A stretch of DNA of 52,344 nucleotides, taken from positions 1-52,344 of the IMG/VR virus record IMGVR_UViG_3300030106_002100; one strand, given 5' to 3'. Positions 14,678-43,505 of the stretch are shown here, piece by piece. This DNA is from a virus. Both the position numbers and the translations under genes were made by a program. Under the pieces are notes generated by a model, which did not search any database, was not told the origin of the DNA, and saw nothing but the letters and a program-made list of their open reading frames with translations. The stretch's first letter is position 1. Each line of letters starts with the position of its first letter.

Positions 14678-15033
14678 TGGCTAAAAAAGTAAAAGGTCAA
14701 ACAGGAACACAATCTGGAAAAGCAGAAGACGTTGATGCTAGGATAGAAAAACTTAAAGAAAAAGATAGTGAAAAACGACCGTTTTTCCAAAAAAACAGAA
14801 AATATTATTTGGAGTTAGACAGATTACAACAAAAAAAGGGTGGTTTTCCCAGAATGCACAACAAAAAAACTCTAGATAAATACATAGCAGAAAGAGATAA
14901 AGAGGTTGAGGAAATGAAAGCCGGAGGTAAAGTAGAAGCTAAGAAAAAGAAAACTGCTAAGAAAAAAACAACCAGAAAATTTAGAGGTGATGGTATAGCT
15001 AGAAAGGGTAAAACAAAAGGGCGCATGATTTAA
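14677..15033 (+). CDS. Basic protein with DGIARKGKTKGR tail, 118 aa
   Basis: Coupled to the previous gene by TAATG. The Lys-rich protein has a charged helical first half (EDVDARIEKLKEKDSEK), a MKAGGKVEAKKKKTAKKK stretch and ends FRGDGIARKGKTKGRMI. It shares tail and composition with its neighbour, so the two are probably paralogues or carry a common functional tag. Confidence 0.7.
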   Translation: MAKKVKGQTGTQSGKAEDVDARIEKLKEKDSEKRPFFQKNRKYYLELDRLQQKKGGFPRMHNKKTLDKYIAERDKEVEEMKAGGKVEAKKKKTAKKKTTRKFRGDGIARKGKTKGRMI

Positions 15034-15722: not shown

Positions 15723-16095
15723 AATGCCGATGAGTAGAGACCCAAAAACGGGTAAGATGGTTCCAAGTTTCGCTATGGATGGTAAGGGAGCGGGAGATTT
15801 AAAGAAAATGCGTGGCGGTGGTATGACGGCTAAAGGAATGGCTAAAGGCGGAGCAGTAATGGCTAAAGGTGGAGCAGTTAAAATGCGTGGCGGCGGTATG
15901 GCTTCTAAAGGTTACTCTATTGGGGGCGCCATAGATGAAATAAATAAAAAGAAAATGGCTAAAGGTATGTCTAAAGGCGGCGTTGCTGGTGGCAAAAAGA
16001 CTGTCGCAAAAAAGACTGCTGCAAAGAAAACCACTACCAGAAAAGTTGCTAAAAAGCGTGATGGTATAGCTAAAAGAGGAAAGACGAGGGCATAA
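15715..16095 (+). CDS. Gly/Lys-rich basic protein with DGIAKRGKTR tail, 126 aa
   Basis: The start at 15715 has AAAGGAG six bases upstream; 15709 is an alternative. It carries Gly-rich repeats (two MRGGGM and two MAKGGAV units), a Lys-rich stretch like histone-tail proteins (KKTVAKKTAAKKTTTRK) and the C-terminus KRDGIAKRGKTRA, related to the tail of the 14201 and 14677 products. Likely binds DNA electrostatically; function inferred only. Confidence 0.7.
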   Translation: MAKMPMSRDPKTGKMVPSFAMDGKGAGDLKKMRGGGMTAKGMAKGGAVMAKGGAVKMRGGGMASKGYSIGGAIDEINKKKMAKGMSKGGVAGGKKTVAKKTAAKKTTTRKVAKKRDGIAKRGKTRA

Positions 16096-26769: not shown

Positions 26770-29160
26770 ATGGCTACATTTAAAAATGTACAAAGACAAG
26801 GTACGGGGTACATAATAAAAGAAAATAATACTTCTTATTTTGTTCCGGGAGATATAGTAAATAATGTTGATACTAGATTTGGTGCTGCAGGAGCGCAAAT
26901 AACAGATATTGACGTGCCTAATAATTATGATTATAAACAAATTATCTTTACTCCTGGGGCAACTGGAGGAGCAGGAGCGCAACCTAAAGATCCAACAGTT
27001 ACTAATGTAGCCACGGGAGAAGAGCGCACACTTAATGAGTATAGTAGAGTTGGATTCGGTTCAAGTTTGTTTGATCCGCCAGATGACGAGGAAGAAGGCC
27101 CAGTGGGCAGTAACTTGCTAGATCCCGCTGTAGATGTAGCGAAAGATTTCACCACAACTGATACACCTAATAATTCTGGTAATTTAACTACTTCTGGATT
27201 AGATGCGTTATATAAAGAAATACTAGGGAGACCATTTACAGACGGAGATGCGGTAGCTGCCAGATACTTGGGAATGAGTGAAGCTGATGTTAGAAAAGAA
27301 TTATCATCATCGCCGGAAGCCTTAATTTATAAACAAGGGGGAGATGATTTAACATTAGATCAGAGAGCAGGTTTTTTAGATATGGTCCAACAAGGGTTGC
27401 CAGACATTCAAGATGTTAATAATGATGGCGTAGTAAATATAGACGATTTATTGATTGACATGGGTAGAGCAGGTTATGGCGAAAATATACTTCCCCGATC
27501 AGAAGACCCAGTGGGCAGTAACTTGCTAGATCCCGCTGTAGATGTAGCGAAAGATTTAACCACAACTGATACACCTTCTGCAGTGGCAGGACCAAATGAG
27601 GTTCCGTTTTTTGGGAGTCAAGGACTAGAAAGAATTTTCACAGATGTTGTGGGCAGGAAACCTACAACAAATGATTATAATTTTTATTTTAACGAGTTTG
27701 GTGGTGGGCTTAACCCTCAAGAAAGAGCTGATTTAACAAGAAGATTAAGACCAGAGCAGCTAGAAAGATTTGATAGGCAACTAGGCCTACCTTCAACTGT
27801 AAGACGAGATGCGGCGGGTAATATACCAACCACACCTGCTTTAGACTTTTCAAAATTTAATAAAACTCTTGACACAGTAGGTATTGACAGATTAAAACCA
27901 CGAGATGATGCAGGTGCGTTAATAGGTGGTACTATGGCAAGTGCTTTCGCAAATCCTCAGTTTACATCGCCTTTTTCTATTCAAACTGAACAGCAAGAAC
28001 TACCTAAAGATACTTTTACACAACTTGGCGATTTGTTTGGTGAACAATTTAAAGCAGATTTAAGAGCAGAAGTAGCGGCTGAAGAGGCAGAGGGTAAAAG
28101 AGCAGGTGGTCTTGCTAGTTTAGGGTATAGACGTGGTGGTGTGGTAGATGAAAATGGTATACCTCGTTTGTTTCTTGGAGGTTTGTTTAAAGGTATAGGT
28201 AGAGCATTAAAAGGAATAACTAAAATAGCTCCGTTTATATTACCATTTATACCGGGATTTCAAGCTCTTACCTTGCCAATGCAATCCTTAATTGCAGGGG
28301 GTGTTGGTGGTTTTAGAGACGGTAAGTTTGATTTAAAACGTGCGTTAACAAGTGGTCTTACAACTTATGGTATTGGTAAACTAGCGCAAGCAGCAGGTAC
28401 TCCTGTTGGTCCAGAAGGTGGTGGAGGCGTTCAAACAGCTCAAGCTGGTCCACAAAGTGCCTTTGATCCAGTATCGGGTGCTGCTACTGACTCTAGTAGT
28501 TATTTTGTTCCTAAAGCTGCAGATGTAGGACGTGCAGGAGTTCCAGCAGGACAAGGAATTGTTGCCACAAACTCTGCGGCAGTAAATCCCGCTGCTGTTG
28601 ATCCAAGTCTAACTGGAATAGATAGATTAAAAGCAGAGGCTGTTGGCACAGGACAAAGGATTGGTGACACATTTAGTAATATTGCTTCAGGAAATGTTGA
28701 AAGCGGAAAATTAATTGCTCCTACTCTAACAACTGTTGGAGGTATAACAGCTACAAAAGCTGGCGATGAGTATGCTAAACAACAAGCAGAATACAAAGCT
28801 TTAACAGCGGCAGATGCAGCAGAAAAAGAAAGAAAACGTAGACTAGCTTTAGAAGCTATAAAAAGAAACCCATTTGGTTATAACGAAGGTGGTGTGTCGT
28901 CACTTCCTGCTAGATATTTAGATGGTATGGGTGATGGTATGAGTGATTCAATACGAGCCAACATAGGCGGTATGCAAGAAGCAAGATTAGCTGATGGAGA
29001 ATTTGTAGTCCCTGCCGATGTAGTGGCAGACCTTGGTAACGGTTCCTCAAATGCAGGAGCTGAAAGATTATACTCCATGATGGATAGAATTAGACAGGCA
29101 CGTCATGGAACAACAAAACAACCGCCTGAAGTAAATGTAAATAAAACATTACCAGCGTAA
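26770..29160 (+). CDS. Internal or structural virion protein with duplicated module and dockerin-like loop, 796 aa
   Basis: The N-terminal domain is followed by two near-identical linkers, PVGSNLLDPAVDVAKD (about residues 111 and 247), each before a helical segment resembling DUF4214-type repeats (LYKEILGRPFTDGDAVAARY; IFTDVVGRKPTTNDYNFYFN). Between them DVNNDGVVNIDD (215-226) matches a calcium-binding EF-hand/dockerin loop. A hydrophobic stretch (APFILPFIPGFQALTLPMQS, about 490-510) and a C-terminal ARLADGEFVVPADVVADLGN domain, common in virion proteins of marine phages, follow. It is probably ejected or lines the internal core. RRGGVV and NEGGV motifs recur. Confidence 0.75.
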   Translation: MATFKNVQRQGTGYIIKENNTSYFVPGDIVNNVDTRFGAAGAQITDIDVPNNYDYKQIIFTPGATGGAGAQPKDPTVTNVATGEERTLNEYSRVGFGSSLFDPPDDEEEGPVGSNLLDPAVDVAKDFTTTDTPNNSGNLTTSGLDALYKEILGRPFTDGDAVAARYLGMSEADVRKELSSSPEALIYKQGGDDLTLDQRAGFLDMVQQGLPDIQDVNNDGVVNIDDLLIDMGRAGYGENILPRSEDPVGSNLLDPAVDVAKDLTTTDTPSAVAGPNEVPFFGSQGLERIFTDVVGRKPTTNDYNFYFNEFGGGLNPQERADLTRRLRPEQLERFDRQLGLPSTVRRDAAGNIPTTPALDFSKFNKTLDTVGIDRLKPRDDAGALIGGTMASAFANPQFTSPFSIQTEQQELPKDTFTQLGDLFGEQFKADLRAEVAAEEAEGKRAGGLASLGYRRGGVVDENGIPRLFLGGLFKGIGRALKGITKIAPFILPFIPGFQALTLPMQSLIAGGVGGFRDGKFDLKRALTSGLTTYGIGKLAQAAGTPVGPEGGGGVQTAQAGPQSAFDPVSGAATDSSSYFVPKAADVGRAGVPAGQGIVATNSAAVNPAAVDPSLTGIDRLKAEAVGTGQRIGDTFSNIASGNVESGKLIAPTLTTVGGITATKAGDEYAKQQAEYKALTAADAAEKERKRRLALEAIKRNPFGYNEGGVSSLPARYLDGMGDGMSDSIRANIGGMQEARLADGEFVVPADVVADLGNGSSNAGAERLYSMMDRIRQARHGTTKQPPEVNVNKTLPA
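27099..27576 (+). repeat. 70-bp direct repeat pair inside virion protein gene
   Basis: Copies at 27099-27168 and 27507-27576 differ at one base in 70. They encode the PVGSNLLDPAVDVAKD linker. Near identity, including third codon positions, points to recent duplication or gene conversion. Confidence 0.9.
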
Positions 29161-29169
29161 GGAAGAGAT

Positions 29170-30090
29170 ATGGTACAACAAGTAACCCAAGTAACGAGTG
29201 AAATACCTGAGGTATTAGAACCTTATTTTGTAGGCGATCCCGATGCGGGTATAACAGGCATAATGCCAAAAGCCCAAGAACTATTTAGTAAAGGGTTCGA
29301 TGACGTATACGGGGCAGGAGCGCAATCTCTTATGGGGCTTGGTGGCGTGGCTCCAATGTCATTCTCACAGGAAGAACTTGGTAGGCAAATACAAAACCTA
29401 GCAGCACCAGACGCATTTACTATTGGTCAACAAGCTCAGGAAGAGGGCATAAGAGGGTTATTAGCAGCACCCGGAAGATTTGATTCAGCGGCAGCTCAAG
29501 CTTATATGTCACCGTATCAACAAGGTGTTGTAGATATAGCGCAAAGAAAAGCAATTGATGCTGCAAAAAAAGCTCAGTTAGATGCTAACTTAGCGTCAGC
29601 TAGACAAGGCACGTACGGTGGCGCAAGACAAGCTCTTTTAACAGGAGCTAGAGAATCAGGACTTAGGACACAACTTGGTGATATACAAACAAAAGGTTTA
29701 CAAGATGCGTTCTTAAATGCTCAACAACAGTTTGAGAGAGACCGTGCCGCACAAATGACAGCAGCTCAAGGACTAGGCACACTAGGACAACAACAAGGAG
29801 CATTAGGAGTTCAACAACAAGCAGCAGAACTAGACCGACTCAAAACACTCGGTGCGTTTGGAGACTTAGAAAGAGCTATAATGCAAGAAGGTCTAAGCGC
29901 AGAGGGCGCATTTCAAAGACGTAGAGACGAGTTTGGACAACAGCAACTAGGTAACCTTGCAAACATCTTGCGTGGTGTACCGACAACAAGCTCAACACAA
30001 ACAACTGCTACACCTCCACCAAGCTTTGCATCACAATTAACAGGTCTTGGTATTACAGGTCTAAGTTTAGCTAAATTATTAGGGGGTTAA
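29170..30090 (+). CDS. Helical internal virion protein, 306 aa
   Basis: Gln- and Ala-rich with long helices (RKAIDAAKKAQLDANLASAR; QQFERDRAAQMTAAQGLGTL) and a Thr-rich C-terminal linker ending in a small hydrophobic segment (ITGLSLAKLLGG). The location between the two other internal virion proteins and the helical, Gln-rich make-up fit an ejection protein that helps form the DNA-translocation channel. No enzyme motif. Confidence 0.65.
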   Translation: MVQQVTQVTSEIPEVLEPYFVGDPDAGITGIMPKAQELFSKGFDDVYGAGAQSLMGLGGVAPMSFSQEELGRQIQNLAAPDAFTIGQQAQEEGIRGLLAAPGRFDSAAAQAYMSPYQQGVVDIAQRKAIDAAKKAQLDANLASARQGTYGGARQALLTGARESGLRTQLGDIQTKGLQDAFLNAQQQFERDRAAQMTAAQGLGTLGQQQGALGVQQQAAELDRLKTLGAFGDLERAIMQEGLSAEGAFQRRRDEFGQQQLGNLANILRGVPTTSSTQTTATPPPSFASQLTGLGITGLSLAKLLGG

Positions 30091-30093
30091 GAA

Positions 30094-31932
30094 ATGTCAA
30101 TAGGTATACTAAGTGCAATGGATGGTCTACAAGGTAAGGATAGGCCCGACGATAATTCTGTATTGTCTGATATAGATAGATTAGCCAGTTTACCTCAAGC
30201 GTTGATTATGCAGATGGCGCAGAAAGGACAGATTCCTAAAGAAGACGTGCTACCCATAATGAACAAAAAAAATGAGAACGCACAAGCGGCTGCTCAAATT
30301 AGAGCAGTAGCACAACAAATGGCACAGCAACAACAAATGGGAGGTCCTCCACCGAGCACAGTTTTTGAAAAAGTTATGGCGCAAAACGCATCTAGAGAAG
30401 CTGTTCCTATGGATAGATCAAACGTCGGTATTGCCTCGGCTCCAATGAGACCGGATATGTTTGCTAAAGCAAGTGGTGGTATCGTTGCGTTTAGTGGAGA
30501 AGATGGTTCGTTAGTACGTCAAAAAAGATTAGCTGAAGCTGAAAGAAATAGGTTACTAGGCCTAGCTGGGCCTTCAAATGCACCAGTATTTGGGTTTGTT
30601 GATGCTTTAGTAAAACAAGGGTTAAGGACGTATCCGGGAACACAAACTCTTTTGGATGGCGCAAGGACTTTACCTGCTGACCCTAATGATCGCCCTTTAG
30701 ATGACGCCATTAATCCAGTAGGCCGAATAGAAGATAATAACCCACTAGCTAATGCAAGATTGCTAGGTGCCTCTACTGAAGTAAAAGCTGAACCTATATA
30801 TGATGAAAAAACAGGCAAGGTTATATACCCAGAAGGTTATACGGACATAAAAGAAGGAGAATATCCAGAAAGAGCGGCTGTTAGAGATTATTTAGCAGAA
30901 GGAGAAAGACGAGGTATGCTACCTGAAGAAGGGGAAAAGCCGTCAGGTTTACAAGAGGCTCAGGCTGAACAATACTTTGCAGAACAACGTGCTGCCAGAG
31001 AAATACCTAAATCTGGTCCGACTGATGAAGATCTATTAGGTAGGCCTGAAGGTGAAGTAGAAGGTTTGGGTGATGTCGTGGCAGATATGGCAGATAAAAC
31101 GCAATCTATAATGGATAGCATAGGGTTACAAAAACCAGAAGACTTTAAGCCAGAAGACTTTTCTGTAGAGAATACTCGTAAATTATTTACAGATGCAGGG
31201 GTTAATTTAAATCTATTAAGCGATCAAGCTAAAAAATTAGGTCAAGAAAGATTAAAATTAGACAAGGATAAAAAAGAAGCACTTGCGTTCTTTGGTTTAG
31301 AAGCAGGACTTAACATACTAGCTGGAAAAGATCCAAATGCTTTGGTTAATATTGGAGCTGGGGCTGGTAAAGCAATAGCACCTTTGAGAAAAGAATTAAC
31401 TAGACTTAAAGACCAACACAATGCTTTAAGAAAAGAAGAAAATCAGTTAGCACGTATGCAGTCTCAACAAGATATGGGTATTGCTAAGTTTTCTCAAGAA
31501 CGCCTTAACGATGCTAGAAAGTCATATGATGCAAATCTCAGGAATTACAATACAACTAGAGCACAAATTGCAAATAGAGTATTAGCTGATAATTCTGCTT
31601 TACAGCGTGTGAAAATGCAGGTGAAAGGGCAAAAAGAAGCTGCTGAAATAAAAGCAGGTGCAACAGGACTTACAGCATCAGCACTTCGTGATTACAGGCA
31701 AAAAAAATTGCAAACTGATGCACTTGAAGATATAAATAATACTAATGAACAAGTAATTTCGTTAAATGTGGCTATGAGTAGAGAGAAAGATCCTAAGAGG
31801 TTAAAAGAGTTAGAAAAAGAAAGAGATTCTATTATAAATAGAGAGTTAGCAAAACGTGGCATTGGGACTCTCGAAGAACCGATTACTTCTGATAGATATA
31901 AAGGGTTCTCAGTAACTGAAGTTGATGGGTAA
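30094..31932 (+). CDS. Internal virion protein, 612 aa
   Basis: MSIGILSAMDGLQGKDRPDD then Gln-rich QQMAQQQQMGGPPPS and the motif KASGGIVAFSGEDG near residue 130. The centre is acidic and likely disordered; the C-terminal half has long coiled coils (RLKDQHNALRKEENQLARMQ). It is the second of three large proteins preceding the replication module and most likely an ejected core protein. Function in detail unknown. Confidence 0.65.
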   Translation: MSIGILSAMDGLQGKDRPDDNSVLSDIDRLASLPQALIMQMAQKGQIPKEDVLPIMNKKNENAQAAAQIRAVAQQMAQQQQMGGPPPSTVFEKVMAQNASREAVPMDRSNVGIASAPMRPDMFAKASGGIVAFSGEDGSLVRQKRLAEAERNRLLGLAGPSNAPVFGFVDALVKQGLRTYPGTQTLLDGARTLPADPNDRPLDDAINPVGRIEDNNPLANARLLGASTEVKAEPIYDEKTGKVIYPEGYTDIKEGEYPERAAVRDYLAEGERRGMLPEEGEKPSGLQEAQAEQYFAEQRAAREIPKSGPTDEDLLGRPEGEVEGLGDVVADMADKTQSIMDSIGLQKPEDFKPEDFSVENTRKLFTDAGVNLNLLSDQAKKLGQERLKLDKDKKEALAFFGLEAGLNILAGKDPNALVNIGAGAGKAIAPLRKELTRLKDQHNALRKEENQLARMQSQQDMGIAKFSQERLNDARKSYDANLRNYNTTRAQIANRVLADNSALQRVKMQVKGQKEAAEIKAGATGLTASALRDYRQKKLQTDALEDINNTNEQVISLNVAMSREKDPKRLKELEKERDSIINRELAKRGIGTLEEPITSDRYKGFSVTEVDG

Positions 31933-31938
31933 TTTAAA

Positions 31939-34900
31939 ATGCCTATATACGAAGTAACTTCACCAACTGGTAAAAAATATAGGGTTGACGCACCAGAAGG
32001 AGCTACTCAAGAAGACGCTATTAGATACATAGCCGACGAAGTAGAGGCACCTCCAACAACCGAACCAGATTTAGCACAACCCACTGAGCCGATACCCGAT
32101 CCTGAAGATCAAAGCTTTCTTAGATCTGTTGCAGACGTTCCTCTTAGTTTTGGTCGAGGTGTGGTTTCCGGTATTAAGTTTATATCTGATGCGCTAGGTG
32201 CAGACAATGAATTTTCTCAAGCAGCAGAGGGCGTAGAAGAATACTTAGCCTCTCTTATGTCGGCACAGTCTAAACAAGATAGTGCAGAAATATCTAGAAT
32301 AATGAAAGATGCCGAGGATAAAGGTGTCGGTGATCAAGTTGTAGCTGCTCTAAAAGCTTTCACAGTTGCCCCCATAGATTTAGTCACGAACGCTCTTGGC
32401 ACTGCAGCTCCCGGTATTGTCGCTGCTGTTGGTTCTACAGTTGCAGGGGCACCTGCTGCTGCCACAGTCGGAGTTCTTGGAGCCGTCGGTACGACCCAAG
32501 GTTTAGGTATAGTAAAAGACACTATTTATGATGGAACAAAACAAGCATTATTAGATGCGGGTGCAACCGAACGACAAGCCGAAGAAAGAGCAAGATTAGC
32601 GCAAGAGTATGGTGGTCAGAATTTAGACTTAATATTGGGAGGTGGTGCTTTTGGTGGACTTGCTGCCATAACAGGTGTTGACAAAGCGTTGGCCGGACCC
32701 ATAGCTAAAAAAATATTAGGCGACTCCTTAATAAAATCTGGAAGTAAAGGAGGTTTAAAAGACTACGCATCGGCAATATTAAAAGAGGCAGGGCCGGAAG
32801 GTGCCCAAGCTGCTCAGGAACAACTTTCTGAGAATATAGCGTTACAAAGAGAGGGGTTCGATGTCCCAACATTTAGAGGGGTTGCAGGTGCTACAACACT
32901 TGAAGGAATAGTTGCAGGTGCGCTTGCTGCTGGTGTAGAGTTTGCAACACCGAAAGAAGATACTGAAGCTGATACTCTAGATGAAGAGTCACAGCGCACT
33001 CAACAAAGATTAGAGGAGGCACAGAAAAAAGATGATGCAGCCACAAAACCTGATGAACCTGACAGCAAAGGAGCTGAGTCTGGCGTTCCTAGTGCTGACG
33101 TCACAAAAACCGATGAAGGTGCCGAAGAAGTTGGAGAACCTGTCGGAAGAGGAGTGGGACCTGCTGGGGTTACTCCTGACAAGCCTGGAGATACAGAAAG
33201 ACGAGTCGACGATACAGTAGAAGAAGAAGGAGAGGTGTTTTTTAGAGGGCAATCGAAAAAAACTAAAAAGGGTACTGGCGCTGGAGCCATGGGTGAAGGC
33301 ATATATTTAACACCTAGTGAAACACAAGCTCAAGATTTTGCTGATCGACAAGAAGATGGTGAAGTAGTTAAGTACAAAGTTAAACCTAACTTAAAAATAG
33401 CCGACTACAAAGAAATGTTAAGAACAGATGAGGTTAATAAATTTAGGGAAAATTTTTTTAATGATCCAACAAATAGAAAGAGTCTAAGAGAATCTTATCC
33501 TCAATTAACTGATGAAGTATTTGGAAGGTTTTTAGGCACTTTACGGAGTCAGCCTGAAGTATTTCCAACTGAGCAACGAGGGTTTTCAAAGAAACAAATA
33601 GCTGACTATAACAAAGGTATAAAAGAAGTTATTCAAAAACTAGGATTCGATGGAGTTAATGACCCTTCACCTGAAATCGGGCTTGTCATATTTGATCCTA
33701 AAAATACAACAGAAGTAAAACCAGAAGTAACAGAAGAGGCAAAACCAGAACCAGAAGTAAAAACAGAACCAGAAGTAAAAACAGAACCAGAAGTAAAAAC
33801 AGAACCAGAAGTAAAACCAGAACCAGAAGTAAAACCAGAACCAGAAGTAACAACCATACCAAAATCAGATTTAGTAAAACAAGAAAAGAAACTAACAAAA
33901 GAGTTCGATAGTATAAAGCCAGGTAAAGGTAGGCGAAAAGCAAGTGCTGGAGATACAGGTTTCTTAGGTCTTAAAGAAATAGAAGACATGTTTGCTAATA
34001 TGCGAGGTTATAAGGTATCTCCAGAAGAAGAGCAAAAAATAAGAGATAAATTTAAAGGGACGTCTGTATTACCCAGAGATATAGAAAACTCTATACAAAA
34101 TAGAAACAATCTGTCTTATGAAAAAAGAAAAGAAAAAGCTTTACGTCTAGGAAATATTGCGAAAGCTAGATTAGAAATTCTTAAAGAAGCAAAAGGTAAA
34201 GACCTTAATTCTGAGGGCAGACAAAACGTAATTGATGCAGTCATAAAACGCATATTTAATGATGATAAAAACTTAAAAGAAGCTAGCGTTAAAAAATACG
34301 GTAAAGGTAGAGAGTTTGTTTTAGCTGAAGAACTTGTAAGCGAACGCTCTGTTGTTGATTTAGGTAAGGCAGTATTACTTCAAGATAGCGCAAGTATAGA
34401 TGAATTAAGCTCCAGTGATACGGTAGATATAAAAAGAATAGAAAAAGCTGCCGAGCTTGCAGAGTTGCAAGAAAAAATGTTTGAGTATGTAGAGCAATCA
34501 GAAACACCTGAAGGAAAACAACCAACAGCGCCGACAGCAGAGGTAAAAGAAGATGCTACAAAAGATCCTGAAACTATAAAACAAGCTAAGACGATAGCTG
34601 AAAATACAAAGGACTTAAAAGAAGAAGATAGCTTTGAAGATTTATCTATAGAAAATTCTCAAACACCCAACGCTGATCAAACGACACCCAACAATGTCGG
34701 TAACATAAACCAAAACGCTAGGCCTAAATGGAAGCAGGTAATAGGTAAGTACACTCCAAAAGCTTTAATGCAAATGGCAGGTGCAGCAAGAGCAAAACTG
34801 TTTAGAATATACACCCTTCGTATGTTAAACGATACGAACAACTTGCTTGGCGGTTCTAAAATGGTTCAGTATCTACAAGCTTTAAAAATAAGTGAGGCTA

Positions 34901-37900
34901 ATGTTGCAGATAGGAACTCAATAATAAATGAAGCTGCCGTAATAATGCGTGACATTCAAAACTTCCGAAAAGAAAAAACAAAAGGTAGAGACAACAACAA
35001 TATATTAAAAGATTTAGGAATCATAATGAACTCTGCAACTATGAGGCAAAAAGATCCTATGTCTTTACCTAAGGATGATGAATTAAGAAAAGCGTATGAA
35101 AAGCTACCCCCTAAAGCTAAAAACATATACAAAGCTTTACAGGCATTTTATCAGAAACAAACGGATGGGTTTGTCTTTGACCTTGTAGAAAAATATCAAA
35201 GAACTATGGTTACTGTAAACCACGACGATGATCCAGAATATACACAAAAAAGACGTATAAAAATAGCAGAAGCATTAATACAATTTGGATCTGAAGAACA
35301 AATAAAGAAGACCTACTTTGATAAAACAAATGAAGAAACTGTAAACTATGTAGATGAGTACATAAAAATAAAAGAAAACGATTTACAAAAAGAAAAAGAT
35401 TTTAGGGAAAAGAACTTAAATGCTATGTCAGCGCAAAGAGCAGCAGATACTTTAGCTGATATAAGAGACCTTGAAAAAAATATTATTAAGTTAAAAAGCA
35501 AAAAGTCTAGGAGAATAGCTCCGTATTTCCCATTAAAAAGATTTGGAGAGTATTGGTTTCAAGTTAAACGAGCAGGTAAAAAACAACCTGTTGAATTTTA
35601 TACTTTTGAATCTGCTGCAGATAGAGATGCGGCATTAGAGACTAGATTAAAAGAGTTACAAGAAGCGGGAGACCCTAATTTAAGTATAGACGCTAAATTT
35701 ACAGCCGATGGTTTAGAGGGTAATGATGTAGGAAATAGATTACTAAAAGCTTTAAACTCTTTCGATGTTTCTTCGTCTGTTGGAAACAATATAAAAGATA
35801 TAGTGGATGGCATAATTCAAAATAGAAAAAAAGAATTTGAAAACTCTAATTTAACAGAAGAACAAATAGCAGATATTCAAGACGAAAGAGATAAACAGAC
35901 CCGTACTTCAGACGATGGCAGACCCATAAAAGGTGTGAGTTTAAATAAACTACAAAACGATATAGAAGATGCTGTAACTCAATTGGTATTTATGACTCTC
36001 CCTGAAAATAACATAAGAAAAGCTTTTTTAGAAAGAAGAAACATAGTTGGAGCTGGCACAGATATAGCTAGAATATTTTCAGGACAAGCGATTAGTTTTG
36101 CGTATCAGAGATCAAGATTAAAATACACCGACTCTTTCTTTACACAAATAGACAATGCGTATATAGCAGCAAAACAAGACAGAAATGTAGACAGATCTAC
36201 GTTAAAAATAGACTTAGTCAGAGAGCTTGATGCTAGAGCAACACACATATTAGGTATAAAACCAACCACAACAGCAGATAACATATCTAACGGACTAACT
36301 CAGTTTACTTTCTTGTGGTTACTAACTGCTCCTGCCTCTGGTTTAATAAACATTGCAGGTATGGCAGCAATAGGTATGCCCTATATAGGAGCTAGATTCG
36401 GCTTCGGTAAAACCAATAAACTTATGATGCAGTATTCTACAAAATACTTAACGTCTAGATGGTTCTCGTCCAGTAAACAAGCTAAAGATGCACAAGGTAA
36501 TACAGTAAATGTACAGTATTCTACTACTGCGCCAACGCTAGAGAAAAAGATAGATGAATTAGACGTAGATCCTAAACTGCAACCTGTACTAAAAACTGCG
36601 TATAAAAGATTTATGCACGACAACGATGTTAACGCATCCCTAACACATGACTTTACAGGTGCTGGAAGAGAACAAGATGTGCCGGGTGTTGCAAGAGGTA
36701 TTGTGGGCGGTTACAGAACTTCAGTTGACTTTATTTCTGCTTTCTTTCATCACACTGAGAGGTTCCAAAGAGAGATAATGTTAATGACTTCGTTTCAATT
36801 AGCATACGAAAAGAACGTAAAAGATGGTAAGAAAGATGCTTTTGAAGATGCCATACAACAGGCGAAAGATCTAACAGGTATGTCTATAGGTGATTTTACA
36901 AGTGCTGGAAAACCTCCTGTTTTGGCTCAACCTTTTATTAAAAACATCTTCCAATTCAAGCAATACTCTTTGATTCAAACATACAACATGATACGTAATG
37001 CTTACGTTATGACAGCATTTAAGGATGGAGATGATCCGCAACTCAAAGCTGAAAAAGCAGAGGCAAGAAAAAGGCTAGTTGGTATGTTAGGTATAACATT
37101 TTTAATGGCTGGTGCAGCGGGCTTACCTATATACACGTTTAGTATGCTTGCAATAGAAGCATTTTCTGCTGCGTTTGATGATGAAGAAGACAGAATAGAA
37201 GACGGAGAAGCTTATGTAAATGGTTTATTGTCTCAAACAATAGGCGGTAAAGGAGCGGCTATGTTGTTAAGAGGTGCTCCGGGAGAGTTAGCAAATATAG
37301 GTATATCAGAGAGGGTTAGTTTAGATTTAGCAAATTTATGGATGCGAGATAGCGGTCTTCAACTTAACTATGAAGATGCTTACAAGGCTACACTAATAAA
37401 TCTATTAGGTCCTACCGTATCAATAGGAGCTAACTTTGCTAAAGCTGCAAACTTATACATGAATGAATACAATCCAAGAGCCGCATTTGAAGCTGCCGCA
37501 CCTATACTTGCAGCAAACATTTCAAAAGCAGAACGTTACCTAGCAGATAAAGCTGCAGTATCTCTCACAAAAGGAACTGAAATACAAGGTGATTTAGACG
37601 CTGTAGATGTATTGTACAGAGCACTTGGTTTTGCACCAGAGAATGTATTACGTAAGCAAAAGTCTGCAATAAGAATGAAAGCAGGTGAGCTTAAAATTAC
37701 AGGCTTAAGAACTCGTCTTTTAGGCGCATTGTTTTTAGCTACTCACTTTGATGACGATAATATGTATGACGACATAAAAGAAAAAATAGATAGGTTTAAC
37801 GATAAATACCCAGAGTTTCGTATAAGCGGTAGAGACATAAGAAACTCTTTGAGTAGAAGAATGGATGCTTTGAGAGAAAGAGAACGAAACAACGGTGTAA

Positions 37901-39051
37901 ATATAAATAGAAAACTTAGACGTAGATTGGAAGAAGATTACCCTGCTTTTTACACAGATGAAGAAGACTATAAAAAGGGCGGCTTAGTTAAGAGATTCCA
38001 AAAAGGAGGTGTATCAGAAATAGATAGAGATAAACTAATAAAACTTATGAAAGAGGGTAGTTACGATCCCACCATAGCTAACCCTAATTTGGGGTTTAAG
38101 TATGACCCTAAAGGTAGTCCTCTTGGTTATGTTAAACAAGATCACTTAGTCCCCTATCGAACAGACGAAGAGTATGAAAAGGCCATACAAGAAAAGTTAA
38201 CAAAAAATAGTGGGGAGAGAGTTAGTAGATTGCCATTAAAAAAAGCACAAGATATGTATTTAACAGATAAATTTTTAGACCAAGATAGAGAAACGCAAAA
38301 ATTTATTTTACAGCATGAGAAAGAACATATAGAGGGTCAAAAAGCTAAACCCTACTTTACTCAAATAACAGAGAAAGAAAAAGAACTTCCAGCAGATCAA
38401 TTTAAAGAACTAATTATTCAAAAACAGAAAGCGAGTAGCCAACCAAGAACTTATGCTGCTATAGGCACTTATGAAGATGTTTTTGGTGTATCGGAAGAAG
38501 ATGCCATCAGTAGAATTAACAGCTTTACAAGGAATATTTTTGAAAAAAATGGTGTTGGGTTTAAAAGCACATTAAAAAAACTTGAGGGGGTAGACCCTTT
38601 ATTTGATAAATTACGGCAAGAGGCGGGAGACAAAACACATGAGTATCTCCCTGGAAAAGTATCTGAAGTTTCTGAACATATAGGTGAAGGAGTTTTACAA
38701 AAGTATATATCAGAAAAATATGAGGTCCCTATAAAGGCTGTAGGTTATATTGGTGCTTCAGACACTAAAAGGTATGGCGCTTCTTTTGAAGAAGGGGTAT
38801 CTGATTTATCTGCTATTGAAACTGTAAAAAATGTAGACCTAACAACAGACCCTATTTTAAGAGAACTTATATTTGATAGCGATCCTGAGTTAATCCAAGT
38901 ATATAAAGCAGTAACTGGTTTAAGAACTGATAGACTAGATCCTAGAGATTTACCTCCATTTACTGCACAAAATATAAAAGGTTCAAAAGAAGAGGAAGAA
39001 GGTTTGCGGCTTAGAAAAGAAATAAGAGAAGATATGAAGAAAAAGAAATGA
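31939..39051 (+). CDS. Giant polyvalent virion protein with PLxRFG, ART-like and zincin-like domains, 2370 aa
   Basis: The N-terminus IYEVTSPTGKKYRVDAPEGA starts a known phage virion module; a Gly/Ala hydrophobic stretch follows (about 143-190). Residues about 432-592 resemble an ADP-ribosyltransferase fold (VFFRGQ, GEGIYLTPSETQAQDFAD, LVIFDPKN). After tandem EVKTEP repeats comes a long helical region with APYFPLKRFGEYW (PLxRFG at 1198-1203), the marker of PLxRFG polyvalent proteins. Two candidate membrane segments lie near 1453-1490 and 1712-1746. At the C-terminus, after KKGGLVKRFQKGGV, HEKEH (2126-2130) is a zinc-peptidase HExxH motif. Probably injected with the DNA to act in the host. The ART and zincin domains are assigned by motif only. 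Confidence 0.8.
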   Translation: MPIYEVTSPTGKKYRVDAPEGATQEDAIRYIADEVEAPPTTEPDLAQPTEPIPDPEDQSFLRSVADVPLSFGRGVVSGIKFISDALGADNEFSQAAEGVEEYLASLMSAQSKQDSAEISRIMKDAEDKGVGDQVVAALKAFTVAPIDLVTNALGTAAPGIVAAVGSTVAGAPAAATVGVLGAVGTTQGLGIVKDTIYDGTKQALLDAGATERQAEERARLAQEYGGQNLDLILGGGAFGGLAAITGVDKALAGPIAKKILGDSLIKSGSKGGLKDYASAILKEAGPEGAQAAQEQLSENIALQREGFDVPTFRGVAGATTLEGIVAGALAAGVEFATPKEDTEADTLDEESQRTQQRLEEAQKKDDAATKPDEPDSKGAESGVPSADVTKTDEGAEEVGEPVGRGVGPAGVTPDKPGDTERRVDDTVEEEGEVFFRGQSKKTKKGTGAGAMGEGIYLTPSETQAQDFADRQEDGEVVKYKVKPNLKIADYKEMLRTDEVNKFRENFFNDPTNRKSLRESYPQLTDEVFGRFLGTLRSQPEVFPTEQRGFSKKQIADYNKGIKEVIQKLGFDGVNDPSPEIGLVIFDPKNTTEVKPEVTEEAKPEPEVKTEPEVKTEPEVKTEPEVKPEPEVKPEPEVTTIPKSDLVKQEKKLTKEFDSIKPGKGRRKASAGDTGFLGLKEIEDMFANMRGYKVSPEEEQKIRDKFKGTSVLPRDIENSIQNRNNLSYEKRKEKALRLGNIAKARLEILKEAKGKDLNSEGRQNVIDAVIKRIFNDDKNLKEASVKKYGKGREFVLAEELVSERSVVDLGKAVLLQDSASIDELSSSDTVDIKRIEKAAELAELQEKMFEYVEQSETPEGKQPTAPTAEVKEDATKDPETIKQAKTIAENTKDLKEEDSFEDLSIENSQTPNADQTTPNNVGNINQNARPKWKQVIGKYTPKALMQMAGAARAKLFRIYTLRMLNDTNNLLGGSKMVQYLQALKISEANVADRNSIINEAAVIMRDIQNFRKEKTKGRDNNNILKDLGIIMNSATMRQKDPMSLPKDDELRKAYEKLPPKAKNIYKALQAFYQKQTDGFVFDLVEKYQRTMVTVNHDDDPEYTQKRRIKIAEALIQFGSEEQIKKTYFDKTNEETVNYVDEYIKIKENDLQKEKDFREKNLNAMSAQRAADTLADIRDLEKNIIKLKSKKSRRIAPYFPLKRFGEYWFQVKRAGKKQPVEFYTFESAADRDAALETRLKELQEAGDPNLSIDAKFTADGLEGNDVGNRLLKALNSFDVSSSVGNNIKDIVDGIIQNRKKEFENSNLTEEQIADIQDERDKQTRTSDDGRPIKGVSLNKLQNDIEDAVTQLVFMTLPENNIRKAFLERRNIVGAGTDIARIFSGQAISFAYQRSRLKYTDSFFTQIDNAYIAAKQDRNVDRSTLKIDLVRELDARATHILGIKPTTTADNISNGLTQFTFLWLLTAPASGLINIAGMAAIGMPYIGARFGFGKTNKLMMQYSTKYLTSRWFSSSKQAKDAQGNTVNVQYSTTAPTLEKKIDELDVDPKLQPVLKTAYKRFMHDNDVNASLTHDFTGAGREQDVPGVARGIVGGYRTSVDFISAFFHHTERFQREIMLMTSFQLAYEKNVKDGKKDAFEDAIQQAKDLTGMSIGDFTSAGKPPVLAQPFIKNIFQFKQYSLIQTYNMIRNAYVMTAFKDGDDPQLKAEKAEARKRLVGMLGITFLMAGAAGLPIYTFSMLAIEAFSAAFDDEEDRIEDGEAYVNGLLSQTIGGKGAAMLLRGAPGELANIGISERVSLDLANLWMRDSGLQLNYEDAYKATLINLLGPTVSIGANFAKAANLYMNEYNPRAAFEAAAPILAANISKAERYLADKAAVSLTKGTEIQGDLDAVDVLYRALGFAPENVLRKQKSAIRMKAGELKITGLRTRLLGALFLATHFDDDNMYDDIKEKIDRFNDKYPEFRISGRDIRNSLSRRMDALRERERNNGVNINRKLRRRLEEDYPAFYTDEEDYKKGGLVKRFQKGGVSEIDRDKLIKLMKEGSYDPTIANPNLGFKYDPKGSPLGYVKQDHLVPYRTDEEYEKAIQEKLTKNSGERVSRLPLKKAQDMYLTDKFLDQDRETQKFILQHEKEHIEGQKAKPYFTQITEKEKELPADQFKELIIQKQKASSQPRTYAAIGTYEDVFGVSEEDAISRINSFTRNIFEKNGVGFKSTLKKLEGVDPLFDKLRQEAGDKTHEYLPGKVSEVSEHIGEGVLQKYISEKYEVPIKAVGYIGASDTKRYGASFEEGVSDLSAIETVKNVDLTTDPILRELIFDSDPELIQVYKAVTGLRTDRLDPRDLPPFTAQNIKGSKEEEEGLRLRKEIREDMKKKK
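33751..33855 (+). repeat. 18-bp tandem repeat array (five full copies plus a partial)
   Basis: Units of CCAGAAGTAAAAACAGAA and close variants follow in frame, encoding (P-E-V-K-T/P-E)n. It forms the flexible linker after the ART-like segment. Copy number probably varies between relatives by slippage. Confidence 0.9.
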
Positions 39052-39422
39052 ATAAATACCCTATAGTATCCGGTATGAAAGAAAAAACTAGACCGCCTTT
39101 GGTTCTAGTTACTTGGCGTGATGCAGAACATGAATTTGGGTGGAAAGACGGCAATACACATATAGAGCCTATAGCTCTTCCGCTAGTTTATAGCATTGGT
39201 TGGTTTATATATTCTAACGAACACGGTGTCAAGATATGTCAAACCTGGACGGTGGATAATCATGCACAAACACTTGTGATCCCAAAGAATATGATTGAGA
39301 AGGTAGAAGAGATATGGCCCGAAAAAGAGATAGTAAAGGGCAGTACCAAAAGCATGGCAAAACCCACTATGAAAAAAACAAAAAAGCCTACGTCGAGAAA
39401 GCCAAGAAGCACAAAGCGATAG
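39048..39422 (+). CDS. Hypothetical protein, 124 aa, coupled to the giant virion gene
   Basis: Starts ATGA overlapping the giant gene. PPLVLVTWRDAEHEFGWKDG and a globular alpha/beta domain are followed by a Lys/Thr-rich basic tail (MAKPTMKKTKKPTSRKPRST). The fold and function are not recognised. It overlaps the HNH gene by 109 bases in another frame. Confidence 0.65.
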   Translation: MNKYPIVSGMKEKTRPPLVLVTWRDAEHEFGWKDGNTHIEPIALPLVYSIGWFIYSNEHGVKICQTWTVDNHAQTLVIPKNMIEKVEEIWPEKEIVKGSTKSMAKPTMKKTKKPTSRKPRSTKR

Positions 39423-39763
39423 AAAAACAAAAGTGGGCAGCGTTCAAAGCTACCTTGTCATGTACTCAGTGTGGAGAAAACCACCCTGCAGCCTTAGATT
39501 TTCACCATATAAAGAGAAGTAGAGACAACATAAAAGTCCACGTCTTAGTGAAAGACGGTCGGTTCAAGAGAGCCTATGAAGAAATAAAAAAGTGTATAGT
39601 GTTGTGTTCTAATTGTCACAGAAAACTTCACCATGAAGAGTACAAAAAAAACCCCCGCACTGGGCGGGGGCAAACTAAGGAAACATGTCAAGATGATTAT
39701 ATCACTCAATCCTCCAAAAGCGCAAGCCCCTCAGCTTGTCTTCTATTACGGACTTACAAATAA
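39314..39763 (+). CDS. HNH endonuclease-like protein, 149 aa
   Basis: The core SCTQCGENHPAALDFHHIKR and KKCIVLCSNCHRKLHHEE forms the beta-beta-alpha metal fold of HNH nucleases, with zinc Cys pairs CxxC and CxxC and catalytic HH. A basic helical leader (YEKNKKAYVEKAKKHK) could bind DNA. It may be a free-standing nuclease or a homing-type element. Its 3' end runs through the minus-strand terminator and 62 bases into the opposing gene; the C-terminal 35 residues look unlike a normal protein end. Confidence 0.75.
   Translation: MARKRDSKGQYQKHGKTHYEKNKKAYVEKAKKHKAIEKQKWAAFKATLSCTQCGENHPAALDFHHIKRSRDNIKVHVLVKDGRFKRAYEEIKKCIVLCSNCHRKLHHEEYKKNPRTGRGQTKETCQDDYITQSSKSASPSACLLLRTYK
39644..39670 (-). 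terminator. Intrinsic terminator for the leftward replication operon
   Basis: On the minus strand a GC-rich stem, CCCCCGC with GCGGGGG (loop of five), is followed by eight T. It lies 31 bases after the stop of the last leftward gene and inside the 3' part of the rightward HNH gene. Confidence 0.9.
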
Positions 39764-39899: not shown

Positions 39900-42630
39900 T
39901 CTTTAAGTCTTCTATATATTCTGTTAAATCAATAAACCCTGACACGGAACAATCAAACTCGTAGCAAGCCACAGCAGGGGTAGTAGTTTCCAAACCTTTA
40001 TCTATTCTCTTATTCAAAGAAGATAGATACACCCCATCGTTTTTCAAAGAATTAATTACATCCCGTAAAGTTATCTGATTGTCAGCACAATATTTCTTAA
40101 AATGCTTTGCCGCTATATACATCCTGCGAGTATCCGGTTCTATACGGATACATAATTTTGAACTTCTTGGCACCAGTATGGGTAGATGCTCGGCTCCAGA
40201 TCTTCTGTCTAAGTCGTTGTTAACGACTAATATGCTTGTTCTGTTTTCATTTATAAACTCACCAACGGTTGCGGCGTGGTCAGCAGACGGAGCTTTTATT
40301 TCTGAACGCATGATGTCCATGTTCTCTATCACCCACTTGAGCACTTTACCAATATCTATCTCTTTCGGTATCAAACCTAGACGTTTAGCTATCCTAGCAC
40401 CGCCGATGTTACATGCGATAATCGCAGACCAAAACCTTTCTCGACTTGTAAACCCAACCTTTTTATCTATGTACGCTTGCACTTTCTTTATCTCATCTAC
40501 TACATCTTTTCTGTTCTTCACAATGTGTTGTATGTATATAGGGCCTGCTAGTCCGTAGTTTTCTGATAACGCATCATCAAACATTGCTTGAGCAAAAGCT
40601 TTCGGCATTTTACTTTCTGGGGGTACATCAAATTCTAAGAACCTCATCAACTCACCATCAGGTGTTTTCTTAGTAGCACGTAATTTATCTACCATGGAGG
40701 CGTTAGAAGTTGTGATAGCTATAGTTGCCCACTTTGTAAAGTTTGCTCTTTCTTCATTTGACGAGGCTTTCATTCTACCTGCACCTCTACCTTGTGTTAT
40801 AGAGAATACTAAGTCAGAAAACTGTTCTCCCGGCATAGCCGTCACTTCGTCCATAGCCACCGACATATTATTGAGTATGCCCATCCTATGTATCTTAGTG
40901 GCAAGAGTATCTCTAGGAATCATAACTAATCCGTTGGGGTCGCCCCATACGCTCTGCGCCATACGCAAAGAAGTTGTCTTTCCTGTACCTGATGTGTTGT
41001 TAACTAGATTTATGATACCGCCTTTGTAGTTTAAGAATTTAAGAAGCGGTGCGCCGAATCCTGTAAAGAACCCAAAGGCTTGAACGTGCATGTCACGCTC
41101 GCCATATATAGCCGCAATATTTTTCCACGCTTCTAAACTACCTCTCGATTCTACAAAATCTATTAACTCTTTTACTCTAGATGATGGCGGGCTAAACATT
41201 GTAGTTTCACCATCTAACTCTTGCCTTCCTAGGATAAACTTAGTATCGTTATCTACCCATCCAAACTGTGATCTCATAATTTCTGCTTTCTTTGTCATTT
41301 GTAAATGTTTAAAAGACCTAATTATATAGTTTATAATTTCAGTCATTTGTTTTTTACCACCAATCACACCACTGTGTGCTAGTTTCTTTTTCGCTTCCTC
41401 AGCCGACAAAACATCTTGAGCAGATATAACTAAACCTTTTTCTCCATCTAAAGGAAGGGTGTGTTTTATAACTGCAACCTCTCCATCGACTGGGTCTATC
41501 ATTCTTTTATCTAAAAACAGTTGATGTTCATAAATTAATTTAGGCTCTTCCTCTTCTACCTGTGCATATACACCACCGTTCTTTGCAAACACATAAGGCC
41601 AAGGTAGCTCTGGTAGTTGTGGGCTACCACTTTCGGGTTGTTCTATATTATCTATTTCTGCTAATACTTTATCGCCTAACTGTATGGGCGAAGTTATTTT
41701 TTGTTTGTGTGGGCAACCTTCACAACCTTTAGGATTCAAGCTTTCAAAAGTCTCGCATCTATAAGGGCCTTTTATTTTACTAGCCGCATCTTCAGTATCG
41801 TTGTAGCTATATTTAGAAGAGTTCCTAGACATAGCATGTATTGCCTCTGCACTGTCGGCGCAGTTAGCGGCTACGGATAAACCTGCTCTCCAAAGAGGGT
41901 ACTCTACTACCTCTTGATTTTCTTTTATGTAATTTATTTGGTTACATGTTTTTATATTTTCAAAAACACTTTGTTTGTTTCCCGCAAGCGCCATTGTCAA
42001 AGCATCTGCTTTTTGTTTTTCAGGCAACGCTTGTTTCTCACCGACGATACCTTTGAAAAAGAAAAAGTTTACTGGCTTTGCATATTTACCAATTAACTTA
42101 CATTCTTTTGGCGGGTCGGTTTTGTAATTAAACGAGTCAGGGAATCTTAGTATCCTACCTTCATCTTCTGTTACTGCGGGGTCGGCGTGAAACTTATGTG
42201 TATCACACAACGCTTTCAAAGATCTTGCTACCGGTTTCCAATCTTTCGGATGTATAGTATTTTCAAGAACCCAGTAAGCATGTATCCCATTACCGGAGCT
42301 AACTATTGTTGGTTTTGGAAGTCCTACCGCATCGCAGAATTGACGTAGAGCTGCGGCCCCCTCTCCCTGACTTTTGTATTCTTTGAGAGGTCCACAGTCT
42401 ACATCTAAGTAAAAAATCTTACAGTATTCTGCGTTAGCCTGAGAACGTCTGTCCGTGTTGTATCTACTACAACCGAAATAAATATTACGCTCTTCAGACT
42501 TCCACTTGTCTATGAGTTGGTAGGCTTCTTCAAAAGTTTCTACACATTTCTGCGTAGTGTCTTTCTCTCCTTTAAAGCCGCCTACCCATAACCACCCTTT
42601 GTCTCCTAAAACATGCTCTAGAAACTTCAT
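39868..42630 (-). CDS. Primase-helicase (archaeo-eukaryotic primase plus DUF927-like ATPase), 920 aa
   Basis: The primase half has the AEP catalytic pattern: FYLDVDCG (Asp76, Asp78), SSGNGIHAYW (His117) and RFPDSFNYK (Asp165). A Cys-rich segment (Cys292, Cys303, Cys306, CEGCPHKQ) may bind zinc. The C-terminal half is a DUF927-type helicase with Walker A NTSGTGKTT (545-553) and Walker B VAMDEV (591-596). The fused layout primes and unwinds DNA for the phage polymerase. The start at 42630 (TGATG with the upstream gene) is preferred to TTG 42633. Confidence 0.9.
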   Translation of the reverse strand: MKFLEHVLGDKGWLWVGGFKGEKDTTQKCVETFEEAYQLIDKWKSEERNIYFGCSRYNTDRRSQANAEYCKIFYLDVDCGPLKEYKSQGEGAAALRQFCDAVGLPKPTIVSSGNGIHAYWVLENTIHPKDWKPVARSLKALCDTHKFHADPAVTEDEGRILRFPDSFNYKTDPPKECKLIGKYAKPVNFFFFKGIVGEKQALPEKQKADALTMALAGNKQSVFENIKTCNQINYIKENQEVVEYPLWRAGLSVAANCADSAEAIHAMSRNSSKYSYNDTEDAASKIKGPYRCETFESLNPKGCEGCPHKQKITSPIQLGDKVLAEIDNIEQPESGSPQLPELPWPYVFAKNGGVYAQVEEEEPKLIYEHQLFLDKRMIDPVDGEVAVIKHTLPLDGEKGLVISAQDVLSAEEAKKKLAHSGVIGGKKQMTEIINYIIRSFKHLQMTKKAEIMRSQFGWVDNDTKFILGRQELDGETTMFSPPSSRVKELIDFVESRGSLEAWKNIAAIYGERDMHVQAFGFFTGFGAPLLKFLNYKGGIINLVNNTSGTGKTTSLRMAQSVWGDPNGLVMIPRDTLATKIHRMGILNNMSVAMDEVTAMPGEQFSDLVFSITQGRGAGRMKASSNEERANFTKWATIAITTSNASMVDKLRATKKTPDGELMRFLEFDVPPESKMPKAFAQAMFDDALSENYGLAGPIYIQHIVKNRKDVVDEIKKVQAYIDKKVGFTSRERFWSAIIACNIGGARIAKRLGLIPKEIDIGKVLKWVIENMDIMRSEIKAPSADHAATVGEFINENRTSILVVNNDLDRRSGAEHLPILVPRSSKLCIRIEPDTRRMYIAAKHFKKYCADNQITLRDVINSLKNDGVYLSSLNKRIDKGLETTTPAVACYEFDCSVSGFIDLTEYIEDLKNENTRSDVQD

Positions 42631-43505
42631 CAATCGTCAGTCTCTGTCCAAGCACTCATAACAGACTCTAAGTCTTTTGATTCCTTTAATTCCTTTGGAG
42701 TACCATCCGAATTATGCGTAGCCTTTTTTACTGTTTTCTTTTTAGGCTCCACAGGTTCAGAGGGTTCTTCAAGTTTTAGTGGTGCGACATCTTTCTTTGC
42801 ACCTATAGATAAAGTTATAGCTTGCGTAGCCAGAGGAGTTTTACCTTTCTCTGTTGCCTTTAACCACTCATCTCTTTCTAAGAAACGTACAGGTTTAAAT
42901 ACAAGCTTCGGTGTATCAGAGTCACTATCGAATTTCATTTCAGTAACAAGTGTGCTAATACTCTTACCTTGTGCATTTAAGTATTTCGCATACTGCTGAA
43001 ACGGCATTTTGTTCATGTCTTTTGATGTGCCGAATATTGACGTGGCAGGTAGCGTAAGCTGATAAATATCTCCATCTATATCCTCTGCTAAAACTACAGC
43101 AAGACGCTGTTGAAATCTACAAGCCCTACTGTTACCCATACCAGAACCTTGTACGTTCTGCGGACAAGTTGCACAGTTTGTGCTTTGCGGATTCTCCACT
43201 GACTCATCCGGTTTAGAAGAATCACTAGACCAACAATCAGGCGCAATGCTTTCTCCTGCTATATACGGACCAGAATAATATTGCCTATGTAGTTTCGGTG
43301 CTCCGTTCGTAACCACAATATTCATAGAACGGTTCTCGTTCTTAGCAACTTCTTCTCCACCAACCATCAAACGAAAGACGGAGCCACGGATAGATATTCT
43401 CTTTAATCCACCACCGGAGCCGCCTCCTAAGTTTTTTGTAAGGTCGTCATCTTGCACCTCTTTAAGATAGTCTGGTGCCGACTGTGTGAGTGAAAACTCA
43501 GCCAT
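42630..43505 (-). CDS. Putative single-stranded DNA-binding protein, 291 aa
   Basis: The protein lies directly upstream of the primase in the operon and starts after AGGAGAATGAA. It has a beta-rich core (RISIRGSVFRLMVGGEEVAK), a zinc-like Cys cluster (NCATCPQN...RACRFQQR), a Lys/Pro/Glu-rich linker, and a short acidic end ESVMSAWTETDD like the C-terminal tails of SSBs that recruit partners. The SSB role is inferred from these features and context; I cannot match a specific family. Confidence 0.6.
   Translation of the reverse strand: MAEFSLTQSAPDYLKEVQDDDLTKNLGGGSGGGLKRISIRGSVFRLMVGGEEVAKNENRSMNIVVTNGAPKLHRQYYSGPYIAGESIAPDCWSSDSSKPDESVENPQSTNCATCPQNVQGSGMGNSRACRFQQRLAVVLAEDIDGDIYQLTLPATSIFGTSKDMNKMPFQQYAKYLNAQGKSISTLVTEMKFDSDSDTPKLVFKPVRFLERDEWLKATEKGKTPLATQAITLSIGAKKDVAPLKLEEPSEPVEPKKKTVKKATHNSDGTPKELKESKDLESVMSAWTETDD

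Follow-up and report, generated by a model that had tools for sequence, protein, structure and literature searches.

A giant PLxRFG-family polyvalent protein gene in an uncultured virus and a conserved gene nested in its +1 frame

Giant polyvalent proteins are thought to be the first weapon of a phage on entry, and their assembly, their harmlessness in the producing cell and their diversification are unsettled. A 52,344-base IMG/VR virus record, which was analysed over its whole length and is called the window here, contains a gene for a chain of this kind, and the question is what the chain is made of, how its parts have been exchanged and what else the same DNA encodes. The locus offers a natural comparison, in that the flanks of a sister phage are up to 98% identical, the cargo is completely different, and an HExxH motif is always present but relocated. 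We propose, with a probability of about 0.78 for the explanation as a whole, that the locus encodes an ejected modular polyvalent giant together with an independently translated gene nested in its +1 frame.

The giant gene and its place in the virion block

The giant gene, the recognisable parts of its product (aa, residues of the giant) and the genes before it are as follows.

24449-26329, hub/stabilisation-type protein gene (phrog_3287)
26770-29160, virion-block gene between the hub and ejection genes
29170-30090, DNA ejection protein gene, two genes upstream of the giant (phrog_4287, E 1.8e-14)
30094-31932, + strand, gene directly before the giant
31939..39051, + strand, giant PLxRFG-family polyvalent protein gene, 2370 aa, ATG start (NF032893, 324.6 bits)
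31939..32052, + strand, N-terminal tag, aa 1-38 (tblastn E 4e-4, 1e-3 and 0.1; each match starts at residue 1 of the protein matched)
32089..32958, + strand, constant N-module, aa 51-340 (about 50% identity across giants of 57 viral loci)
33211..33738, + strand, ADP-ribosyltransferase-like segment, aa 425-600 (PF18760, 17 bits, E 2.7e-4)
33730..33858, + strand, acidic Pro/Glu/Lys/Val repeat linker, aa 598-640 (low-complexity matches)
34882..35250, + strand, LPD39-like domain, aa 982-1104 (PF18858, 20.6 bits against a cut-off of 27, sub-threshold)
35500..37920, + strand, PLxRFG (tail-700) domain, aa 1188-1994 (NF032893 match at 1335-1994, and alignment; predicted mostly helical, AF2 pLDDT 61)
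35530..35547, + strand, PLKRFG motif, aa 1198-1203
37951..39048, + strand, C-terminal extension with HEKEH (aa 2126-2130), aa 2005-2370 (72-73% identity, only with sisters L059 and L060)

An earlier note on this DNA had proposed one 2370-residue chain of the PLxRFG type. A single open reading frame of that length is present, its stop codon overlapping the ATG of the next gene, and PLKRFG occurs in it once, at the residues given by the note and within APYFPLKRFGEYW. The profile comparison on which the note had staked its claim gave a match of aa 1335-1994 to NF032893 ('PLxRFG domain-containing protein', tail-700, NCBIfam) with an E value of 1.4e-96, and the score lies far above the cut-off of 100 bits; membership of the PLxRFG family is thereby settled. 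Because this adjoining segment matches, PLKRFG is not a chance hexamer, and at the start of the module it aligns with the PLRRFG or PLMRYG of relatives. The note had credited the description of PLxRFG proteins to Iyer, Burroughs and Aravind; the term is absent from Iyer et al. 2017, and the name is NCBI's. In that paper the domain matching PLxRFG proteins is LPD39, listed among potentially enzymatic domains of unknown function (PMC5512222). The LPD39 match is above the cut-off in sister L060 (32.4 bits). A Foldseek comparison of the PLxRFG module model with the PDB gave a best E value of 0.12 at a probability of 0.28 and no T7 gp16-like match. The repeat linker that had been noticed is real (E-P-E-V-K repeats), and of two membrane-like segments one, aa 1713-1739, is strongly hydrophobic (peak 1.92), whereas the other, aa 134-192, is weaker, with a mean KD of about 1.4-1.5 and an Ala/Gly-rich composition. 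An Rfam search of the window gave no match.

The N-terminal virion module and the virion operon of the earlier note both found support. The first 38 residues align with the very start of three proteins from other phages, a 'DNA injection protein', a 'lytic transglycosylase' and an 802-residue protein whose gene adjoins an internal virion protein gene (tblastn, modest E values), and aa 51-340 are kept in other giants. The giant gene lies among late virion genes, follows structural and DNA ejection genes, and is the last of the virion/ejection block. Two cultured phages, HTVC023P and DSL-LC04, have homologues of the capsid, portal, hub and ejection genes, and a third, CRP-902, has homologues of each except the ejection gene; the capsid is 56-66% identical to those of cultured relatives, and Planktothrix phage Pag-Yong1 also has the common portal and capsid. 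The corresponding block of DSL-LC04 ends with a protein annotated 'DNA transfer protein'. The N-module and the nested gene described below were not found in the stretches of HTVC023P, DSL-LC04, CRP-902 and Pag-Yong1 that were compared, and the 612-residue protein encoded directly upstream gave no confirmed match as a query. Tag, neighbourhood and gene order suggest that the giant is probably injected into the host together with the DNA by an uncultured short-tailed phage.

Several side observations concern this block and its surroundings. Three neighbouring genes for small basic proteins (14189-14677, 14677-15033 and 15709-16095) share a near-identical C-terminal tail, DGIA[RK][KR]GKT. Short GG[ILV]-V...GG motifs, e.g. 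KKGGLVKRFQKGG and MAKGGAVMAKGGAV, recur in the products of 14189-14677, 15709-16095, 26770-29160, 30094-31932 and the giant gene, where the motif (aa 2011-2026) coincides exactly with the junction to the C-terminal extension; these motifs may have a packaging, cleavage or linker role. Just behind the giant gene, an HNH endonuclease gene (39314-39763) shares about 109 bases, in another frame, with a 124-aa gene (39048-39422).

Exchangeable cargo and the HExxH motif

The sister phage L063 (IMGVR_UViG_3300030108_002379) is close to the window on both sides of the giant. Its downstream genes are 82-95% identical, except the gene at 42630-43505, and its upstream genes 62-98%, with the virion protein of 26770-29160 as the exception at 34-49%. 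DNA similarity ends at 30491, 133 codons into the gene preceding the giant, and sets in again at 39047, at the close of the giant gene. Between these points identity is down to 25-36% in the constant modules of the two giants, whose cargo is unrelated. The L063 giant has neither the ART-like region nor the C-terminal extension; its cargo is a GHKL ATPase (HATPase_c_3, 25.5 vs 25 bits) and a WLM-type core zincin (29.1 vs 26). In this gene, L063:2055-10001, the GHKL ATPase is the apparent injected cargo and adjoins the WLM-type zincin. The giant of L060 has a different, coiled-coil-like cargo and a C-terminal extension 73% identical to that of the window, the giant of L067 ends at the PLxRFG module, and the end of the extension is common also to L061. 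Recognisable cargo among relatives comprises a C5-methylase, RadC, ddrB-ParB, GNAT, ART and the GHKL ATPase. LPD39 and PLxRFG were each found in 14 of 21 giants of a first set and in 1 of 19 of a second, and LPD38 in 22 giants; this distribution indicates that the constant N-module has been joined to two alternative C-terminal modules. On the N-module tree the four classes require 10 label changes where the minimum would be 3, so that several switches are needed. On these comparisons, the giant is a fast-swapping cargo protein in an ejection-protein slot.

Variation also touches other genes. The gene at 30094-31932 is hypervariable too: its first 133 residues are 67% identical to those of L063 and the rest is unrelated, the break lying at a GGIVAF(xKGG) motif. 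The gene at 42630-43505 is 95% identical in L059-L061, and its place in L063 (13580-15186) is taken by two diverged open reading frames of 36-62% identity. A 177-aa gene, by eye an MT-A70-type methylase, stands beside ribonucleotide reductase in L059 (9321-9854) and L060 (12053-12586) and is absent from the window.

The ART-like region named in the earlier note is recognisable in part. The PF18760 (ART-PolyVal) match spans the GxGIYLT region, but its score lies under the Pfam cut-off of 31.2 bits and the first catalytic His is replaced: in an alignment against ART-PolyVal domains from relatives, Arg (FFRGQS) takes the position of the YHG(T) His, GIYLT retains its Tyr, and the last strand has no clearly placed acidic residue, which leaves the H-Y-D/E catalytic set incomplete. 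No homologue of the region was found in the viral contigs and phages searched. We regard the segment as degenerate or divergent, and probably degenerate. T4 Alt modifies its host target after injection, and the giant might likewise be an active ADP-ribosyltransferase effector whose 425-600 domain modifies a host target; the E value of the match and the ART-PolyVal domains of six other giants (two Pfam scans) speak for this reading, but the low score, the residues missing from the first and last strands and the retention of the domain in no sister phage found make it unlikely.

The zincin-like region of the earlier note is weaker than the note implied: at an E limit of 10 the MPTase-PolyVal profile (PF18818) does not match the window, and the claim comes down to one conserved HExxH in the C-terminal extension. 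In sequence comparison HEKEH or HELEH and a downstream FEE(G/A)VSD are conserved between sisters; a structure model of the extension, built on a three-sequence alignment, reached pLDDT 43 and was unusable, and no homologue of the extension was found in phages or bacterial genomes. Across 45 complete giants, some of them near-duplicates, HExxH is present in 44 and HExxxH alone in one, against an expectation of 0.007 per protein in shuffled sequences. Except in the giant of the window, at least one motif stands over 1000 residues ahead of the C-terminal end, in most cases upstream of LPD39 or LPD38. The motif is thus in the core of every complete giant but that of the window, where it has moved to the tail. 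The giants of the window and L060 (the latter N-terminally truncated) show no core zincin domain, the profile aligning with the LPD39-like part only, and their HEKEH/HELEH stands about 245 residues before the chain ends, in an extension without sequence relationship to the core domain. The idea that a degenerate core zincin is hidden in the window's giant (VLAEELV at 794, for example) was considered and rejected, the profile having covered the LPD39-like part alone. The simplest reading is that the core zincin was lost and a different HExxH domain gained. A processing role has been proposed for such peptidases (Iyer et al. 2017, PMC5512222), and the core zincin and the HExxH domain of the tail may both do this job.

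A further possibility is that the giant is a purely structural or ejection-channel protein of the T7 gp16 type, with its cargo a filler and not an effector. The position in the ejection block, the helical PLxRFG module and an N-terminal tag common to injection proteins would suit such a protein, but the recognisable enzymes among the cargo of relatives, the retention of HExxH or HExxxH in every complete giant and the lack of a fold match to gp16 argue against it, and we consider it improbable.

The earlier note had also thought that the combination of ART and zincin might be undescribed. In Iyer et al. 2017 (PMC5512222) the two already occur together in one polyvalent protein, e.g. that of Acetonema longum, and the combination is therefore not new in itself. 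The disparate domains by which polyvalent proteins are recognised are, in the window's giant, sub-threshold for the ART-like and LPD39 segments and confined to a motif for HExxH, and they are clear in relatives. The giant gene encodes a PLxRFG-family, probably polyvalent protein, and its exchange history and relocated HExxH are of more interest than ART plus zincin.

A conserved gene in the +1 frame

Within the interval from 30491 to 39047, the sole DNA that aligns with L063 is a stretch of about 94 bp (33132-33225), which also aligns with L060 and L065. When it was read in three frames, the conserved frame proved to be +1, not that of the giant, and an initial view of the island as a recombination anchor was dropped on this result. 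The frame belongs to the following elements.

33014..33019, + strand, Shine-Dalgarno-like AGGAGG, 12 nt before the nested ATG
33032-33220, + strand, nested gene in the giant's +1 frame, 62-aa protein MMQPQNLMNLTAKEL...KDESTIQ, stop TAG at 33218-33220

The window's nested protein reads MMQPQNLMNLTAKELSLAFLVLTSQKPMKVPKKLENLSEEEWDLLGLLLTSLEIQKDESTIQ, followed by the stop. A profile search of the first set found the nested frame in 29 of 49 giants; every match was in frame +1, with none in +2 or in reverse, and a wider profile run over all loci matched the + strand only. A scan of IMG/VR with one nested peptide gave 111 relatives, of which 80 were kept, several of them contigs of the first set or near-duplicates; in all 79 inspected (L083 was left out) the gene is nested within a long open reading frame in the identical relative frame. 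The family consensus is MLxxLSxxQVExALxWLxSPxxxxPPEELxxLxxxEWxLLxxMLxxLxxEKxxSxLH. About 24 other giants, mostly of LPD38 types, lack the gene, which indicates that it is dispensable in some contexts and not essential to every such giant. In our sample it occurs only within the giant gene, with no free-standing copy. No relative of the family was found in PHROGs, the PDB, phage genomes or bacterial genome contigs, none of the cultured phages of the collection searched has the gene, and the literature searched gave no description of it. Of 24 nested peptides compared with Pfam, one matched NblA at E 0.002, which was treated as chance. The nested overlapping gene is a new, previously unrecorded element; the earlier note had mentioned neither it nor the cargo swap between sister phages nor the change of place of HExxH. 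As a separate observation, three near relatives that lack the main nested gene have another +1 open reading frame of 49 aa with AAGGA, identical in sequence among them (L012:11495-11641, L017:11430-11576 and L018:11541-11687).

The comparative evidence for coding is consistent. Mean protein identity among 60 sequences is 54% in the alternate frame and 32% in the giant's frame, and the alternate frame is the more conserved in 1769 of 1770 pairs, which are non-independent through shared ancestry and uniform in direction at all distances. Differences at the three alternate codon positions (0.41, 0.27 and 0.49) follow the order of a coding frame. The N-module of the same genes, used as a control, shows the reverse, with 0.46-0.67 for the main frame against 0.27-0.35 for the +1 frame. 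When the window and its sisters were left out of the profile, the window's frame scored 39.5 bits; in 400 synonymous-codon shuffles that keep the giant's protein the score never exceeded 9.5, and the +1 frame stays open in only 8 of those 400. Taken together, these comparisons mark the nested frame as almost certainly a real coding sequence.

An AGGA, GGAG or GAGG core precedes the nested start in 59 of 60 sequences, and among 48 distinct sequences GGAG at -10 to -7 is 90-100% identical, whereas flanking bases are far less conserved. The spacer of 12 nt in the window exceeds the usual 6-8 and that of most relatives, and is long for efficient initiation. The conserved start signals suggest that the nested gene is very probably translated by internal initiation. 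The +1 peptide could instead arise by programmed +1 ribosomal frameshifting, which would yield the N-module with about 60 further residues beside the full giant. In keeping with this, AAAAAAG stands directly before the nested ATG in the window, the frame is always +1, and many relatives have an alternate frame that opens well ahead of the ATG; but frameshifting needs neither a Shine-Dalgarno sequence nor a start codon, both of which are fixed in nearly all sequences, the alternate frame of L079 opens exactly at the ATG, and most relatives have not kept the A-run. Frameshifting is thus decidedly improbable, and internal initiation remains the preferred reading.

The nested product does not appear strongly hydrophobic, which makes a holin unlikely. 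Since the nested gene shares an mRNA with the giant, is retained at the same place while the cargo downstream of it is replaced and has no free-standing copies, its role may be linked to the giant, and its job could perhaps be that of a folding or packaging partner or of an inhibitor of the protease or cargo.

Overall explanation and comparison with known systems

In the explanation that we favour, the giant would belong to the internal (ejection) proteins of a short-tailed phage's virion and would be packaged and delivered into the host with the DNA. Its build order would be an N-terminal ejection tag, the constant N-module, exchangeable cargo, LPD39 and the helical PLxRFG module, and in the lineage of the window a C-terminal HExxH cassette would replace the core zincin of relatives. 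We infer that the HExxH domain cleaves the giant and frees the cargo, and that the helical PLxRFG module helps in crossing the envelope. The nested gene would be started from its own Shine-Dalgarno sequence, under a protein-level constraint that appears stronger than that on the giant's frame, and its product may act on or with the giant as an assembly chaperone, or as an inhibitor that silences cargo or protease in the producing cell. A DarB-type anti-restriction protein protecting incoming DNA is highly unlikely: aa 851-2002 do match phrog_10089, labelled 'DarB-like antirestriction' (E 5.7e-52), and phage homologues are annotated DarB-like or methylase, but the common part is the C-terminal PLxRFG module alone, the label derives from other domains of those larger proteins, and adenine methylase and SNF2 helicase domains are absent from the giant in Pfam, NCBIfam and PHROG scans.

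We speculate, as a doubtful extension, that throughout a large clade of uncultured short-tailed phages a conserved +1 nested protein of a new family controls the giant, as assembly partner or as inhibitor of protease or cargo. If this is true, a single message supplies the weapon cartridge as well as its safety catch, and the two outlast the exchange of cargo between constant modules. The nested gene, absent from the family libraries searched, is a small and directly testable handle on the giant, and where annotation rules out overlaps a conserved gene can go unnoticed in about 100 viral contigs.

Polyvalent proteins as described in the accessible text of Iyer et al. 2017 (PMC5512222) resemble the giant in chain size, late virion neighbourhood and LPD39-like, HExxH and ART-like regions; the giant differs in that its ART and LPD39 matches are sub-threshold and its HExxH domain is at the extreme C-terminus with no MPTase-PolyVal match. 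That text mentions no overlapping gene. The PLxRFG proteins of Klebsiella phages ZX1, LASTA and SopranoGao and of Serratia phage Parlo are likewise giant and multidomain, and the window's giant is about half the length of the 495-kDa protein of the ZX1 group (PMC9505181). With GenBank phage homologues the common part is confined to the C-terminal PLxRFG module, where homology extends over as many as about 950 residues at 21-27% identity. Compared with PLxRFG proteins of the ZX1-group type, the giant of the window has an unrelated N-module and cargo, a 366-residue extension after the module and the nested +1 gene. Overprinted phage genes, e.g. the embedded lysis genes of ssRNA phages (PMC7693330), are alike in encoding a small alternative-frame protein with its own start. 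In contrast to these, the window comes from a dsDNA phage, the gene that hosts the overlap encodes a product of 2000-3000 residues that is probably injected, and the nested product looks soluble and is kept in very diverged relatives, down to about 30% identity.
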